64,000 nt of DNA from a bacterium. Its GTDB lineage: Bacteria > Bacteroidota > Bacteroidia > B-17B0 > Aurantibacillaceae. The stretch is taken from the NCBI GenBank assembly GCA_029945625.1, contig JAQSCW010000026.1, positions 62,001 through 126,000 on the forward strand, in the 5' to 3' direction. Shown here piece after piece: positions 52,586 through 59,306 of this stretch; the stretch's first letter is position 1, and every line of letters begins with the position of its first letter. Made by a program: the position numbers and the translations under genes. The notes below the pieces were generated by a model. The model had not been told where the DNA came from. It saw nothing but the letters and a program-made list of their open reading frames with translations, and did no database searches.

Positions 52586-54526
52586 ATGAGTTCCTCCAAA
52601 AAATACTGCAATAGTTTAACAAGTTACTCCCGTTTTACGACGCGCGAAGTAAGTATCGGTGATCTTAAAATGGGCGCACAGCATCCCATTCGTGTACAAA
52701 GCATGACCACTACCGATACGCTCAATACTCTAGCCACGGTGGAGCAAAGCATTCGTATGATAGAGGCAGGTTGCGAATTAGTGCGCATCACCGCCCCAAG
52801 TATGAATGAAGCGAAAAATCTGGAACTTATTAAAAAGGAGCTCGTGAAGCGCGGTTATAATACGCCAATTTGTGCCGACATCCATTTTACTCCCAATGCG
52901 GCCGAGTTCGCTGCGAGGGTAATTGAAAAGGTGCGGGTTAATCCGGGTAATTATGCCGATAAGAAAAAATTTGAAAACATTGATTATACCGACTCTGCGT
53001 ACGAGGAAGAATTGCAACGCATTCGCAAACGCTTTACGCCCCTGGTTACAATTTGTAAAGAATACGGCACCGCCATGCGTATTGGCACTAACCACGGCTC
53101 TTTGAGTGACCGTATCTTAAGCAGGTATGGAGATACACCTTTAGGTATGGTGGAAAGCGCACTTGAGTTTTTGCGGATCTGTGAGGAAAATAATTACTTC
53201 AATATTGTTATTTCCATGAAGGCAAGTAATACTCAGGTGATGGTGGAGGCTTATCGTTTATTGGTGGCTAAAATGATAGAAACCAATCGCAATTATCCGC
53301 TACATCTGGGAGTGACAGAGGCAGGTGAAGGAGAAGACGGAAGAATAAAATCTGCAGTGGGAATTGGCACTTTATTGGAAGATGGATTGGGGGATACCAT
53401 TCGTGTTTCCCTCACAGAAGATCCCGAGTTTGAGATTCCGGTGGCTAAGCTTTTGGCAAATCGTTATTCCAAACGAAGTGGTCATGCTGCTATCACAGAA
53501 ATTGATTTTGAATTGCCCTACAATCCCTTTGAACATGATAGAAATACAACAAATGAAATTCTAAATATCGGAAAGACCAATGTGCCCCGTGTACTTGCCG
53601 ATTTTTCGATGCGAACGGAGATCACAGCTGCAAGTCTGTTTGGGGTGGGATACAACTATTCTGTGCCCTTAGATAAATGGAACCTCAGCGACATGGCGGT
53701 GGATTATATCTATGCCGGAGATAATTTGATCAATTTTGAAACTCCCGGTACCTTGGGAATAATTTATAATTCAGAGGTTTGGAAAAAAAACAAAAACCAA
53801 AAAAGAGTCTATCCTCTCTTTTGCGGCGAAGAGTACTTTAACACAAAGCAACGATCTGAGATCCTGAATTTTGTGGCGGTTGATAGTGCTGCCTTAACGA
53901 AATCCTTTATCGACAAAATCAAAATGGAGCACTCTGTTTGTTTGGTCCTGGATTCGTTTAATACCCATACCATGCCCGAGTTGAGGAGAATGGCGATGGA
54001 ACTTAAACACAGACATTGCCCACTCCCCTTTATTATAAAATGCAATTATAAAGATCTAAGTGAACAGGAATTTCAGCTTTATTCGAGCACCGATCTGGGT
54101 GGTTTGCTGTTGGATGGTTTTGGAGACGGAATTTGGATCAAACAAAAAGAATGCGTGAGTACACAGGCTTGTAATTCTACAGCCTTTGGTATTTTGCAGG
54201 CTTCTCGCACGCGTATCAGTAAAACAGAATATATTTCCTGTCCGAGTTGCGGCCGTACTTTGTTTGATCTTCAGGAAACCACACAAAAGATCCGCGAACG
54301 CACCTCCCATTTAAAGGGAATAAAGATCGGCATCATGGGCTGTATCGTGAATGGTCCCGGCGAAATGGCCGATGCCGATTATGGTTATGTGGGAACTGGG
54401 CCCGGTAAAATTAGTCTGTATAAAGGCAAAGAAGTAGTGAAGAAAAATGTGACTGCCCTAACTGCGGTTGACGAACTTATTGCATTGATCCAAGAACATG
54501 GCGACTGGGTGGAGAGAACCATGTGA
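52586..54526 (+). CDS. ispG: (E)-4-hydroxy-3-methylbut-2-enyl-diphosphate synthase, long form
   Basis: GAQHPIRVQSMTTTDT; ISCPSCGRTLFDLQ; GIMGCIVNGPGEMADADYGYVG; 646 aa with a large internal insert. Confidence 0.96.
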   Translation: MSSSKKYCNSLTSYSRFTTREVSIGDLKMGAQHPIRVQSMTTTDTLNTLATVEQSIRMIEAGCELVRITAPSMNEAKNLELIKKELVKRGYNTPICADIHFTPNAAEFAARVIEKVRVNPGNYADKKKFENIDYTDSAYEEELQRIRKRFTPLVTICKEYGTAMRIGTNHGSLSDRILSRYGDTPLGMVESALEFLRICEENNYFNIVISMKASNTQVMVEAYRLLVAKMIETNRNYPLHLGVTEAGEGEDGRIKSAVGIGTLLEDGLGDTIRVSLTEDPEFEIPVAKLLANRYSKRSGHAAITEIDFELPYNPFEHDRNTTNEILNIGKTNVPRVLADFSMRTEITAASLFGVGYNYSVPLDKWNLSDMAVDYIYAGDNLINFETPGTLGIIYNSEVWKKNKNQKRVYPLFCGEEYFNTKQRSEILNFVAVDSAALTKSFIDKIKMEHSVCLVLDSFNTHTMPELRRMAMELKHRHCPLPFIIKCNYKDLSEQEFQLYSSTDLGGLLLDGFGDGIWIKQKECVSTQACNSTAFGILQASRTRISKTEYISCPSCGRTLFDLQETTQKIRERTSHLKGIKIGIMGCIVNGPGEMADADYGYVGTGPGKISLYKGKEVVKKNVTALTAVDELIALIQEHGDWVERTM

Positions 54527-54695
54527 CTCCCAAAAAGGGCCTTTTTTGTTTCTCCTAATTCAGCTTTGGGTTCTGCTCCCTTACTTTTGCATCTAAAAGT
54601 GCTTTAATTGAAAAATCTTGTGTTTTTTTCAATTTTTCAAGAATCGATTAAAAAAATCAATATCTTAGACTGCTTTAATTCTAAAATCAATGACT

Positions 54696-57467
54696 ATGAA
54701 AAAATTTTACGTTCGAATACAATTGTTTGCACTTCTGTTTTTAGTGCTGGGAACAGCCTTTTCTCTGCAGGCTCAGCAATCATATACGTTTACTACCGCG
54801 GGTGCTACGGGGGTTTCAGGCCCTTCGCAAACCCAGATTAATGCGGCTTATCTGAGTACAAATTTAAATGGTTCTGTTACAGTGGCAGGAGGGATCCAAT
54901 CGTGGACCGTGCCGGCAAATGGTTCCTACCGCATTGAAACATATGGTGCGCAAGGTGGCGGTTCCACCGGAGGAGCAAATACTGGCTCATTGGGAGGATT
55001 TGGAGCGGCCATGATTGGCGACTTCACGTTAACTGCTGGACAAGTGCTAAGAATTCTTGTGGGTCAGCAGGGGGGAACAGACCCCTATGGAGGTGGTGGA
55101 GGCGGTGGATCCTACGTTGTTAATAGTTTGACTGTTCCTCTGGTTGTGGCCGGAGGCGGTGGCGGAGGTAATGGTTATGTGGGTTACAGCCGTGGTGTTT
55201 TTGCCGGCGGTTGTGGCGTGATCACAACTACGGCAGGTAATTCAAATCAAACAACAGGTACATATGGTGCTGCTGCTCCCGGTATTGGAGGAGGAGCAAT
55301 AGCTATGGGCGGTACCCAAGGATATGGGGGTGGCGGTGCTGTTGCTGCAGGCGGCGGCGGATTTTATAACAATGGCGGGACGTCAACTAACGGAGGTTTC
55401 CCTGGTTTAGGGTTTATACAAGGGGGCACAGGAGGGGCAGGTAATGGTTCCTTCAATATGGGTGGCTTTGGCGGCGGCGGCGGTGGCATCACTAGCTCCG
55501 GTTATGGCGGTGGCGGCGGTGGCTATTCCGGCGGCGGCGCAGGGAATTGGGATGGAACCACACATGGCAATGGCGGTGGTGGCGGATCCCTCAATTCCGG
55601 TTCAAACCAAACCAATACAGCTTGCTTCAATGCCGGAAATGGCAGAGTGATCATTAGAGAGCTATGTAATATAAGTCTAACAAGTTCAGGTTCGAGTAGT
55701 TTGGCTCCGAGTATTTGTAGTGGGCAATCACTTACTTTAAGTACGAATGCCATCAGCCCTTATACGTGGTATAATGGCAATACTACTAATAACAGCATAG
55801 TTGTTTCACCTACTGTTACCACTACCTATTCAATTGTGGGAACTAGTACAGCTGCCTGCGTTGCTTCTGCATACATTACAGTAACCGTGAGTGGCGGCCT
55901 TCCTGTTTTAGCTATAGCCAATCCAAGTAACAATATTTGTTTGGGTCGCACAGTTTCATTAACAGCAACAGGTGCACTTACCTATACATGGACCGGCGGC
56001 GTGGTGAATGGTCAAACTTTTACCCCGGTTTCAACGCAAAATTACACAGTGTCGGGACAAAATGGTTGCGGTATTTCAACAGCGGTTACGGGCATAACAA
56101 TTTCTCCACTCCCGGTTTCAGTATTAGCAAGCCCATCCATAGTGTGTCAGGGATTCCCATCCACCCTTACAGCAGTAGCAGCAGTTACGGGTTACACCTG
56201 GCAACCCGTTAGTCTGTATGGTTCAAGCATTACCGTGGCACCCATGGCCAACACGATCTACACAGTTACGGCAAGTGATGGTACTTGTTCAGGCACACAA
56301 ACCTTGACTCTAAATACAAAAATTACGCCAACTATAACAGCGAGTGCTGTAAATACGGTCATTTGTCAGGGGGCATCAATAGTGCTCACCGCGAATGGCG
56401 GCTCTACGTATGTGTGGACACCCGGAAACTTATCCGGTAGTACCATAACCGTTAGTCCATTGTCTTCTACGCTTTATTCAGTGGCTGGCACCAATTCCGT
56501 AAATTGTACCTCTTCTGCCAATCAGATAATTCTGGTAAATGCCAGCCCTACCCTTAATATTGTTGCCAATAAAACAACAGTGTGTGCAGGTGATGCGGTA
56601 AATTTATTTGCCAGTGGAGCTACTACCTATACTTGGACCAACGGGCCTTTCACCTCAAGTTATACTGCGAACCCAACAAGTTCAACAGTGTATACAGTGA
56701 GTGGAAATCAAGGAACAAACATCTGTGCAGGTACAAATACAATTGCAATCACTGCCATTGTTTCTAATGTCACGGTGTCTTCAAATACCGCCGTTTGTCC
56801 GGGTGGTACTGCTACTTTAACTGCCGGCGGTGCGACTTCGTATACATGGAATGGAGTGCCTATGGGTGGTAACGGAAGTTTTCAGGTATCACCTTCAAGC
56901 ACAACTATCTACACCTGCGTGGCAAATACCACTTCCGGTTCAGTAAGCTGTCCCACTACTAAAACAGTGCAGGTGGCCATCTTCCCAAATCCAACAATTA
57001 CTGTGGTGGCTACTAAATCTCTGATTTGTAAAGCACAGTCCAATACACTCACAGCCACCGGAGCTGTTACCTATTCATGGGGCGCTGCCGGAACAGGATC
57101 TGTTATCGTGGTAAAACCAAACAACACTACCATCTACTCGGTGAACGGAATTGACATAAACGGATGTCAAGGTTCACAATTGATCTCAGTGATAGTAAAT
57201 GCCTGTTTGGGAGTTTCGGAGTTGACTAGCGGAAATCAATCTGTGCTTATTTATCCAAATCCAAGCGCCGGCGAACTCACTATTTCATCTCAATCAGATA
57301 TCAGTTTGAAGATTAGTAATGAACTGGGACAGGAAGTGAAACACATCGAACTCTCTGCTCAAAATGGACATGTGGTATCGATCAGTGATTTGGCTTCTGG
57401 AATTTATATGATTTCCGGACAAAATGAGAACGGACAAGTAAATCAGAAAGTGATTGTAACGAAATAG
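54696..57467 (+). CDS. Secreted glycine-rich (ALK/LTK GRD-like) protein with Ig-like repeats and T9SS tail
   Basis: Signal peptide; [25 protein letters not shown]...; Gly-rich; seven CxGxxxTLTAxGxxxYTW repeats; C-terminal [13 protein letters not shown]...[22 protein letters not shown]. Confidence 0.9.
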   Translation: [923 protein letters not shown]

Positions 57468-57508
57468 AAAGTTTCAGGTAAAGACCTCACGAGTCTGCAC
57501 TATTAATG

Positions 57509-57568
57509 AACCGCAGTTAAGCAAGAGTTCCGCGAAGGTCGGAACCTTGTTTAATTGCGGTTTTTTTA
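57509..57568 (+). terminator. Long rho-independent terminator
   Basis: AACCGCAGTTAAGCAAGAGTTCCG...CGGAACCTTGTTTAATTGCGGTT followed by TTTTTA. Confidence 0.85.
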
Positions 57569-57582
57569 TGCCCATCTTTTTT

Positions 57583-57654
57583 ACTTGTGCTGAGACCTGC
57601 ACTGAGCTTGTCGAAGTGTTGTCGAAGCGACTTGTGCTGAGACCTGCACTGAGC
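57583..57654. repeat. 25-bp direct repeat, two copies
   Basis: ACTTGTGCTGAGACCTGCACTGAGC at 57583-57607 and 57630-57654. Confidence 0.9.
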
Positions 57655-57680
57655 ACTCGACCTGAGTACCCGCCCTGAGC

Positions 57681-57770
57681 CCGTCGAAGGGTATCGAAGG
57701 GTATCGAAGGTTGTCGAAGGGTGTCGAAGGGAATCGAAGGGTGTCGAAGGGTGTCGAAGTGTTGTCGAAG
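57681..57770. repeat. 10-bp tandem array, nine units
   Basis: CCGTCGAAGG GTATCGAAGG GTATCGAAGG TTGTCGAAGG GTGTCGAAGG GAATCGAAGG GTGTCGAAGG GTGTCGAAGT GTTGTCGAAG. Confidence 0.93.
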
Positions 57771-58112
57771 CATCAAGCAAATTGGAAAAGAAAAAATAGT
57801 TCGAATTCAAGTATGATCAAAGACCGGCAATAGCCAAGTGGGCTATTGAGCCCGACTGAGCGGTAGCGCAGGCACGAAGATTTTCGGAAAAATTTTCTGA
57901 AGCCTTGTCCCGAAACCTTTGTAGAACTCTCGATATTGATTCCGGCTTTTTCCGACATTTTTGTGCGATCTTCATATCTTTACTTTGTTTAAATAATTGA
58001 ATATTGAAAAGAAATAACTAAATTTAGTATACTCTAGAAATTTAATGCTAGGGTAAAGAGCAATTGAAATAAATTAATGAGTATGTAAAGAAAAAGGGAA
58101 ATGCTCTTGCAG

Positions 58113-59306
58113 ATGAGATACGTATTGGCATTAGCCATTTTAGGAGCTTGCGGAGCTCCCCAGGGCAGCGGCGATAGGGGTCATCATAACCCTTGTCGAG
58201 GGGGTTTATCCACTAATTATAATTTCACAGAGAATATCAGAAAGCTTTGTGTGCGCCCCGAGGATCTAAATACGGCCGCTGAGCAGTATTCTTTTATAGG
58301 ACGGTACTTCTCCGCTCACAAGGCTTTTGATCAGTTAATGGGTGAGACCGGACCCCAGGATATTTACTTTGATACTTCCGATTTTAGGGCGCATTCTGCT
58401 ATTGAATACATAGTTGAAAAGGCGAGGGGGAGTCAGATCGTGATTATTAATGAAGCTCACCACGTACCTTATCACCGGTTTTTTACCATGTTGCTCTTGG
58501 CAAAGCTTCATGAATCAGGATTTACCTTTTTTGGGGCTGAAACTCTCAGTCATTCAGATACCGTCTTAAACAATAGGGGATATCCTACCCTTCGTTCAGG
58601 ATATTATACCCGGGAACCGCAATATGGAAATTTGATAAGACAGGCAATTAAAACAGGTTTTTATGTTTTTGCCTATGAGGCAAGAGGGGGTGTGGATGGC
58701 AAACTGCGGGAAATTGAGCAAGCACGAAATATTGCACGAGTATTAGAAGTTAACCCAAAGGCCAAAATACTCATCCATTGCGGATTTGGTCATTTAATTG
58801 AGGGAAAAGTGGAAGGCTGGGAAAAAGCAATGGCCGGACGAGTTTTAGAGTGCACCGGCATTGACCCTTTGACAATTGATCAGGTGGAACTCAGCGAGCA
58901 TTCCGACAAAAAATTTGAAAACCCCTATTATCGTAAACTGAACTATAAGTATTTTAAAGTAATACGAAACAGTAGTGTCACCATCCCCGTAAACTTCAGA
59001 ATTGGGGGCAAAAGCAGCGACATCTTTGTTTATCATCCTCGCACAAAACTCTTATACAACAGACCTGACTGGCTTTTTCAATTTTATAAACCAAAGTTTT
59101 TGGTGAATGATATTAAAATTTCATTTCCGGTAATTATCAAAGCCTATTTGGCACAAGAGAATGATGAAATTGCGATTCCCATAGATGTGATTGAGGTTGA
59201 AAAAAAAGCTGACAGCACTGCGTTGGCTTTGATGCCGGGGAATTGGTATACCATTGTTGTAGAAAACCAAAATAAGCAAAAGCAGATTCTTAAGCTTAAA
59301 TTTTAA
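58113..59306 (+). CDS. Lipoprotein with ChaN/erythromycin-esterase-like fold
   Basis: Lipobox LGAC; IVIINEAHHVPYHRFFTMLLLAKLHESGFTFFGAET; ILIHCGFGHLIEG. Alternative start 58101. Confidence 0.65.
   Translation: MRYVLALAILGACGAPQGSGDRGHHNPCRGGLSTNYNFTENIRKLCVRPEDLNTAAEQYSFIGRYFSAHKAFDQLMGETGPQDIYFDTSDFRAHSAIEYIVEKARGSQIVIINEAHHVPYHRFFTMLLLAKLHESGFTFFGAETLSHSDTVLNNRGYPTLRSGYYTREPQYGNLIRQAIKTGFYVFAYEARGGVDGKLREIEQARNIARVLEVNPKAKILIHCGFGHLIEGKVEGWEKAMAGRVLECTGIDPLTIDQVELSEHSDKKFENPYYRKLNYKYFKVIRNSSVTIPVNFRIGGKSSDIFVYHPRTKLLYNRPDWLFQFYKPKFLVNDIKISFPVIIKAYLAQENDEIAIPIDVIEVEKKADSTALALMPGNWYTIVVENQNKQKQILKLKF

Follow-up and report, generated by a model that had tools for sequence, protein, structure and literature searches.

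Gene and domain layout

The window, by which we mean the whole 64,000-nucleotide stretch analysed, carries on its + strand a gene (54690-57467) that, by ORF translation and Pfam, encodes a secreted T9SS surface protein of 925 aa with an ALK/LTK-type head. The gene is preceded by gcpE (52586-54526, named by eye), and a hairpin with a T run that resembles an intrinsic terminator lies directly 3' of it on the same strand (57509-57567; core stem computed, longer stem by eye). From the N-terminus, and all on the + strand, the gene encodes a putative signal peptide region (54690-54779, judged by eye from the translation), the head, which is a TNF-like and glycine-rich ("TG") domain of the ALK/LTK type (aa 31-326, 54780-55667), a stalk of Ig-like repeats of the CHU_C-associated Ig_7 kind (aa ~327-836, 55668-57197; PF19081, 5 stretches) and a T9SS type A C-terminal sorting domain (aa 854-925, 57249-57464). 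The TNF-like half of the head (54780-55079) reads FTTxGxxGPxQxQxNxAY...GIQxWxVP...GxYRI...ILVGQQGG. It is followed by a glycine-rich insertion (55080-55604), which matches ALK throughout in the profile alignment, differs among paralogues and is expected to form poly-glycine-II loops, and by closing TNF-like strands (55605-55667), which the head alignments and the ALK profile alignment identify as the counterpart of ALK ..MEGHGEVNIK; the AlphaFold2 model has strands at 275-284 and 289-294 in domain numbering.

A preliminary description of this DNA had quoted a peptide from the head, placed the domain at 54780-55665 and followed it with Ig-like repeats and a T9SS-type tail. The peptide is in frame in the 925-aa ORF and the start of the domain stands, but its end lies 2 bases further, at 55667. 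The repeats and the tail were both borne out: a Pfam scan of the 925 aa reported Ig_7 (E 6.6e-7) and the T9SS tail (PF18962, E 4.6e-12, 46.5 bits with a cut-off of 27) only, and TIGR04183 also recognised the tail (E 1.2e-9, 38 bits with a cut-off of 23). SprA, the T9SS translocon component that we searched for by profile, is encoded in the same genome (SprA_N, E 2.2e-151). By its type A tail and the presence of SprA in the same genome, the protein is a predicted T9SS type A cargo. No tandem DNA repeats were found within the gene.

Downstream of the gene, units of ~10 bases (GTCGAAGGGT and variants) form an intergenic array (57590-57775) that contains two 25-base direct repeats and yields a spurious ORF at 57474-57776. 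A 401-aa ORF beyond it (58101-59306) contains INEAHHVPYHR, had no Pfam match at 1e-3 and had no match in the gcpE-fumC interval of the congeneric genome G001.

Homology of the head to the ALK/LTK ligand-binding unit

A phmmer search of the PDB with the head matched ALK (7lrz, E=2.5e-19), LTK (3e-13) and C. elegans SCD-2 (3e-5), and nothing else. Identity to human ALK over the first ~94 head residues is 50% (47/94), made up of 14 glycine and 33 non-glycine positions. When X replaced every glycine in the first 135 residues, the PDB search still returned ALK at E 2.2e-8 and LTK at 4.5e-6. The real head scored 62.6 bits against the ALK segment, compared with a mean of 0.3 and a maximum of 19.8 for 5000 shuffles in which glycines were kept fixed. 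Glycine masking and glycine-fixed shuffling together rule out a low-complexity artefact, as the preliminary description had argued from the order of the motifs, and the loss of score on masking that it had named as a refutation did not occur. A profile built from 17 heads of bacterial and viral origin found LTK at 9.5e-33 and ALK at 1.5e-32, and ALK was matched in one stretch, positions 2-288 of the 291 in the profile, indicating colinearity over the whole domain. These sequence comparisons show true homology between the head and the TNF-like/glycine-rich (TG) unit with which animal ALK/LTK bind their ligands. The earlier label, a homologue of the ALK glycine-rich domain, was right in its homology but too narrow, since the part of the head that best matches ALK in the alignments is the TNF-like half, and the entire TG unit is present.

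The Pfam model for the family, PF12810 (ALK_LTK_GRD), had been put forward as a check and agreed with this assignment in part. It was reported neither for the whole 925-aa protein nor for the whole head domain, probably because of compositional-bias correction, but it passed on N-terminal pieces of the head scanned alone (a 98-aa piece scored 27.5 bits against a cut-off of 24.5). The match starts ~46 residues into the head, which leaves the FTTxGxxGxxGPTQxQxNxAY part outside the model.

AlphaFold2, run on the alignment of 17 bacterial and viral heads, gave a head model with pTM 0.82 and a mean pLDDT of 76.3, in which domain residues 137-183 fell below 50. When this model was compared with the PDB using Foldseek, the best 21 matches were all to ALK, LTK or SCD-2 (E 1.9e-15 to 1.4e-7; TM by query 0.53-0.72). 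The predicted structure thus has the TNF-like plus glycine-rich fold in common with ALK/LTK. Of the structural comparison suggested as a check in the preliminary description, the fold match held; poly-PGII packing is only expected, and residues 137-183 are modelled with low confidence.

The head therefore shares with the solved ALK/LTK TG domains (PDB 7lrz, 7nwz, 7nx0, 7lir) a colinear match to the whole domain (profile ~1e-32), the modelled fold and the N-terminal FTTxGxxGPTQxQxNxAY part. It differs from them in forming the N-terminal part of a T9SS surface protein. The kinase, EGF-like and MAM domains were all absent in the Pfam scan, which rules out membership in the ALK/LTK receptor tyrosine kinases.

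A family of proteins with ALK-type heads

The domain is not confined to a single protein; the head belongs to a paralogue family. The genome of this environmental bacterium encodes 13-14 proteins with ALK-type heads (14 ORFs collected, 13 of them >850 aa), at 10 loci by sequence search and at more by profile; four of these genes stand in tandem on contig C45. Alongside the window gene there are six paralogues with ALK-type ('type A') heads and several shorter 'type B' ones, whose heads are without the FTTxGxxGPTQxQxNxAY part. Identity among paralogues across the glycine-rich insertion is low in places (0.24 at aa 176-200).

Full-length type A matches at E 1e-20 or better were present in 18 of 36 congeners, several of them multi-copy. 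In a sample of 396 genomes spread evenly over the phylum, this one included, G075 was the only other genome with a strong full-length match; one more genome, G040, was matched in the search that covered the congeners. PF12810 was found in 6 of these 396 genomes, compared with 25 of 40 genus genomes above cut-off. The family has therefore expanded in this lineage and occurs patchily elsewhere. Relatives are also encoded on 7 GTDB contigs and 13 IMG/VR contigs.

Three further loci deserve mention. The single-contig genome G001 has 22 PF12810 matches, including several tandem arrays, for example near 1.28, 2.53 and 3.65 Mb. A PF12810 match at G010:C256:31894-32529 has one in-frame TGA, which may reflect a sequencing error or a copy that is broken. 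At L022 (4914-7754) an ALK-type head is joined to SprB repeats and a T9SS tail, so the head is portable between stalk types.

Separate histories of heads and stalks

We compared heads, stalks and tails as modules in 39 proteins and counted best partners for the 35 from genomes with at least two members (8 congeneric genomes); genes from outside this genome had been sampled by their ALK-type heads. The best partner lay in the same genome for 4/35 heads, 23/35 stalks and 21/35 tails, where chance predicts 5.3. For the proteins with type A heads only, the counts were 0/28, 17/28 and 15/28, respectively, and the TNF-like segment alone had a same-genome best partner in 5/28 (expected 3.0). Proteins whose stalk paired within the genome and whose head paired elsewhere numbered 20, against 1 for the reverse (p=2e-5). 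The window protein itself illustrates this pattern: it shares 87% of its stalk residues with the paralogue L059_10919 of the same genome, whereas the heads are 43-56% identical, and its tail is 43% identical to the L059_10919 tail and 83% to that of L060_1029.

In the head tree, cross-species pairs were recovered at 97-100% bootstrap, such as G017_L075 with G000_L059_925 (100/99) and G001_L072 with G013_L087_909 (99/95), and one within-genome pair was supported, L059_941 with L061 (99/83). Four cross-species head pairs were rejected by the C-terminal 470 residues, stalk and tail together (AU p<=1.1e-4); the pairs had been picked from the head tree, that is, from data other than those tested, and the stalks are repetitive, which may mislead alignments and trees. 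Taken together, the module comparisons show separate sequence histories for the heads and for the stalk/tail modules.

DNA alignments gave a similar picture. Paralogue stalks in G001 share identical runs of 224-329 bp where the heads of the same genes are ~60-79% identical in DNA, and where head meets stalk, near nt 950, identity rises in several G001 pairs. In the genome under study, the tails of two C45 pairs reach 99-100% identity towards the 3' end. There is thus good support for gene conversion within a genome as the process that homogenises stalks and tails.

The heads could be ancient, vertically inherited orthologues, with conversion acting within genomes on stalks and tails only and with no exchange of heads between species; we give this account a substantial chance, short of an even one. 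The identical tracts seen in the DNA of stalks and tails, which look like conversion, fit it, and the cross-species head identity of ~55-78% is what old orthologues would show. Against it, the flanks of the four head-matched locus pairs that we compared have essentially no genes in common, and the syntenic gcpE-fumC interval of G001 lacks the window gene. Exchange of heads across species is possible, and tips and stalks with separate histories suggest an exchangeable set of binding heads.

Mosaic surface proteins have a precedent in the domain rearrangement described for P. gingivalis (PMC5266723), likewise a Bacteroidota species with mosaic domain variants. That case differs in that it concerns other proteins and domains and acts at the strain level, with no cross-species family of heads and stalks.

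Phage and viral relatives

Several of the IMG/VR contigs encode the head on short proteins amid tail-fibre-like genes: near the L033 head gene lie genes for a head-tail adaptor and a tail sheath stabiliser, and near that of L028 genes for a tail fibre protein and an endolysin. Searches of named phage genomes and plasmids (tblastn with the low-complexity filter on) gave no match, whereas IMG/VR contigs and BFVD models do match. A head on He_PIG repeats with an IPTL-CTERM tail is encoded at L023 (4731-6761); this contig, filed as viral, may belong to a bacterium or a prophage.

A phage fibre with such a head has a solved structure, the tail fibre gp24 of cyanophage Pam3 (PDB 7ypx), which was the match at rank 22 in the Foldseek search, at a weak E of 0.04. 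Like the window protein, it bears its TNF-like and glycine-rich head at the far end of a surface-exposed shaft; unlike it, gp24 is a trimeric phage fibre with an alpha-helical shaft and a chaperone. The variable tips of the gp24 head have been proposed to bind host receptors (PMC9608196). The adhesin gp38 of Salmonella phage S16 also recognises its host through a glycine-rich tip of layered glycine-rich motifs (PMC9608196), but it has no TNF-like barrel and no match in our searches. We considered whether the window gene itself might encode a phage tail-fibre tip of the Pam3 type. This was rejected, as the gene sits after gcpE on a bacterial contig (neighbours judged by eye) and encodes a T9SS tail.

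A proposed function in surface adhesion

We consider it probable that these genes encode a family of surface adhesins in which separately evolving heads are carried on homogenised stalks and work like phage fibre tips. The signal peptide and the type A tail would take the protein to the cell surface through T9SS, where the tail points to probable cleavage and linkage to anionic LPS; both cleavage and LPS anchoring are known for cargo with such tails (PMC10202324). The chain of Ig-like repeats would hold the N-terminal ALK/LTK-type head outward. By analogy with the Pam3 fibre, the head most likely binds a ligand, which may be a glycan, a protein or the surface of another cell, using the variable loops that tip its rigid glycine-rich core, and tip variability appears in our alignments as low identity and gaps. 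With stalks and tails homogenised in each genome, and heads that persist or perhaps move across species, each strain would hold a set of different binding heads mounted on one shared scaffold, presumably to adaptive ends.

As a T9SS substrate, the protein might instead serve gliding motility, its head gripping the substratum while the T9SS/gliding machinery moves the adhesin. RemA, a gliding adhesin, also has a type A tail (PMC10202324), and the same head is borne on SprB repeats at L022. However, many diverse paralogues exceed what one machine's adhesin would need, and SprA was the only one among gliding genes that the search covered. We regard a gliding role as unlikely.

A glycine-rich core could also suit attachment of the cell to ice or mineral particles through a flat, regular poly-glycine-II face. 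The snow flea antifreeze protein has a poly-glycine-II core with such a face, and some of the GTDB relatives come from isolates named Kiruna, maybe cold sites. A regular ice-binding repeat would look different, however: the glycine-rich part of the head is irregular, its loops vary and are rich in indels, and the TNF-like half frames it. We hold ice or mineral binding to be quite improbable.

Least probable, and by our estimate close to negligible, is mimicry, which the preliminary description had raised; the head would here imitate ALK/LTK and capture the animal cytokine ALKAL or engage host receptors. The head does resemble ALK/LTK in sequence and fold. However, the ALKAL contacts Glu974 and Glu978 of ALK align with Ala and Arg in the window head, which is a weak test, and the acid at the second position (Glu978) occurs in 0/6 aligned paralogue heads. 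The lack of an EGF-like domain in the Pfam scan, the carriage of the same head by phages and the record names of the GTDB relatives, which look like those of environmental-type MAGs, also argue against mimicry.

Origin and significance

In a tree of 45 TNF-like segments, ALK and LTK formed one long branch adjoining the viral contig L023 with weak support (85/50). The two human sequences are the only eukaryotic rows, so the tree permits no conclusion on the direction of transfer. Tentatively, and with odds that we hold to be well on the low side, T9SS adhesin loci may swap ALK-type heads between species by recombination in their homogenised stalks and tails, changing the repertoire of a strain; the same fold would circulate in bacteria, phages and giant viruses, and the ancestor of the ALK/LTK unit may derive from this microbial pool.

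This kind of domain was already known, and a literature search on PF12810 returned nothing beyond a paper on a nematode-killing fungus. Newly reported here, from sequence analysis, are the 13-14 predicted proteins in one genome with four genes in tandem, the apparent head/stalk mosaicism and the link between bacterial adhesins, phage fibres and an animal receptor domain; the mosaicism and the link hold most interest. A human oncogene receptor family thus has, on statistical evidence, full-length homologues of its ligand-binding unit in bacterial surface proteins and phage fibre genes, and these bear on the origin of the ALK/LTK domain. The number of genes in one genome and the separate histories of their heads and stalks make this a tractable family in which head exchange and ligand choice are testable.

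Among viral models, the best BFVD fold matches of the head include giant-virus proteins, cyanophage proteins and phage entries named 'receptor protein-tyrosine kinase'. The latter names, carried by A0A8S5PNX1 and other phage proteins with the ALK-type fold, look like misannotation, probably arising from the shared ALK-type head alone.
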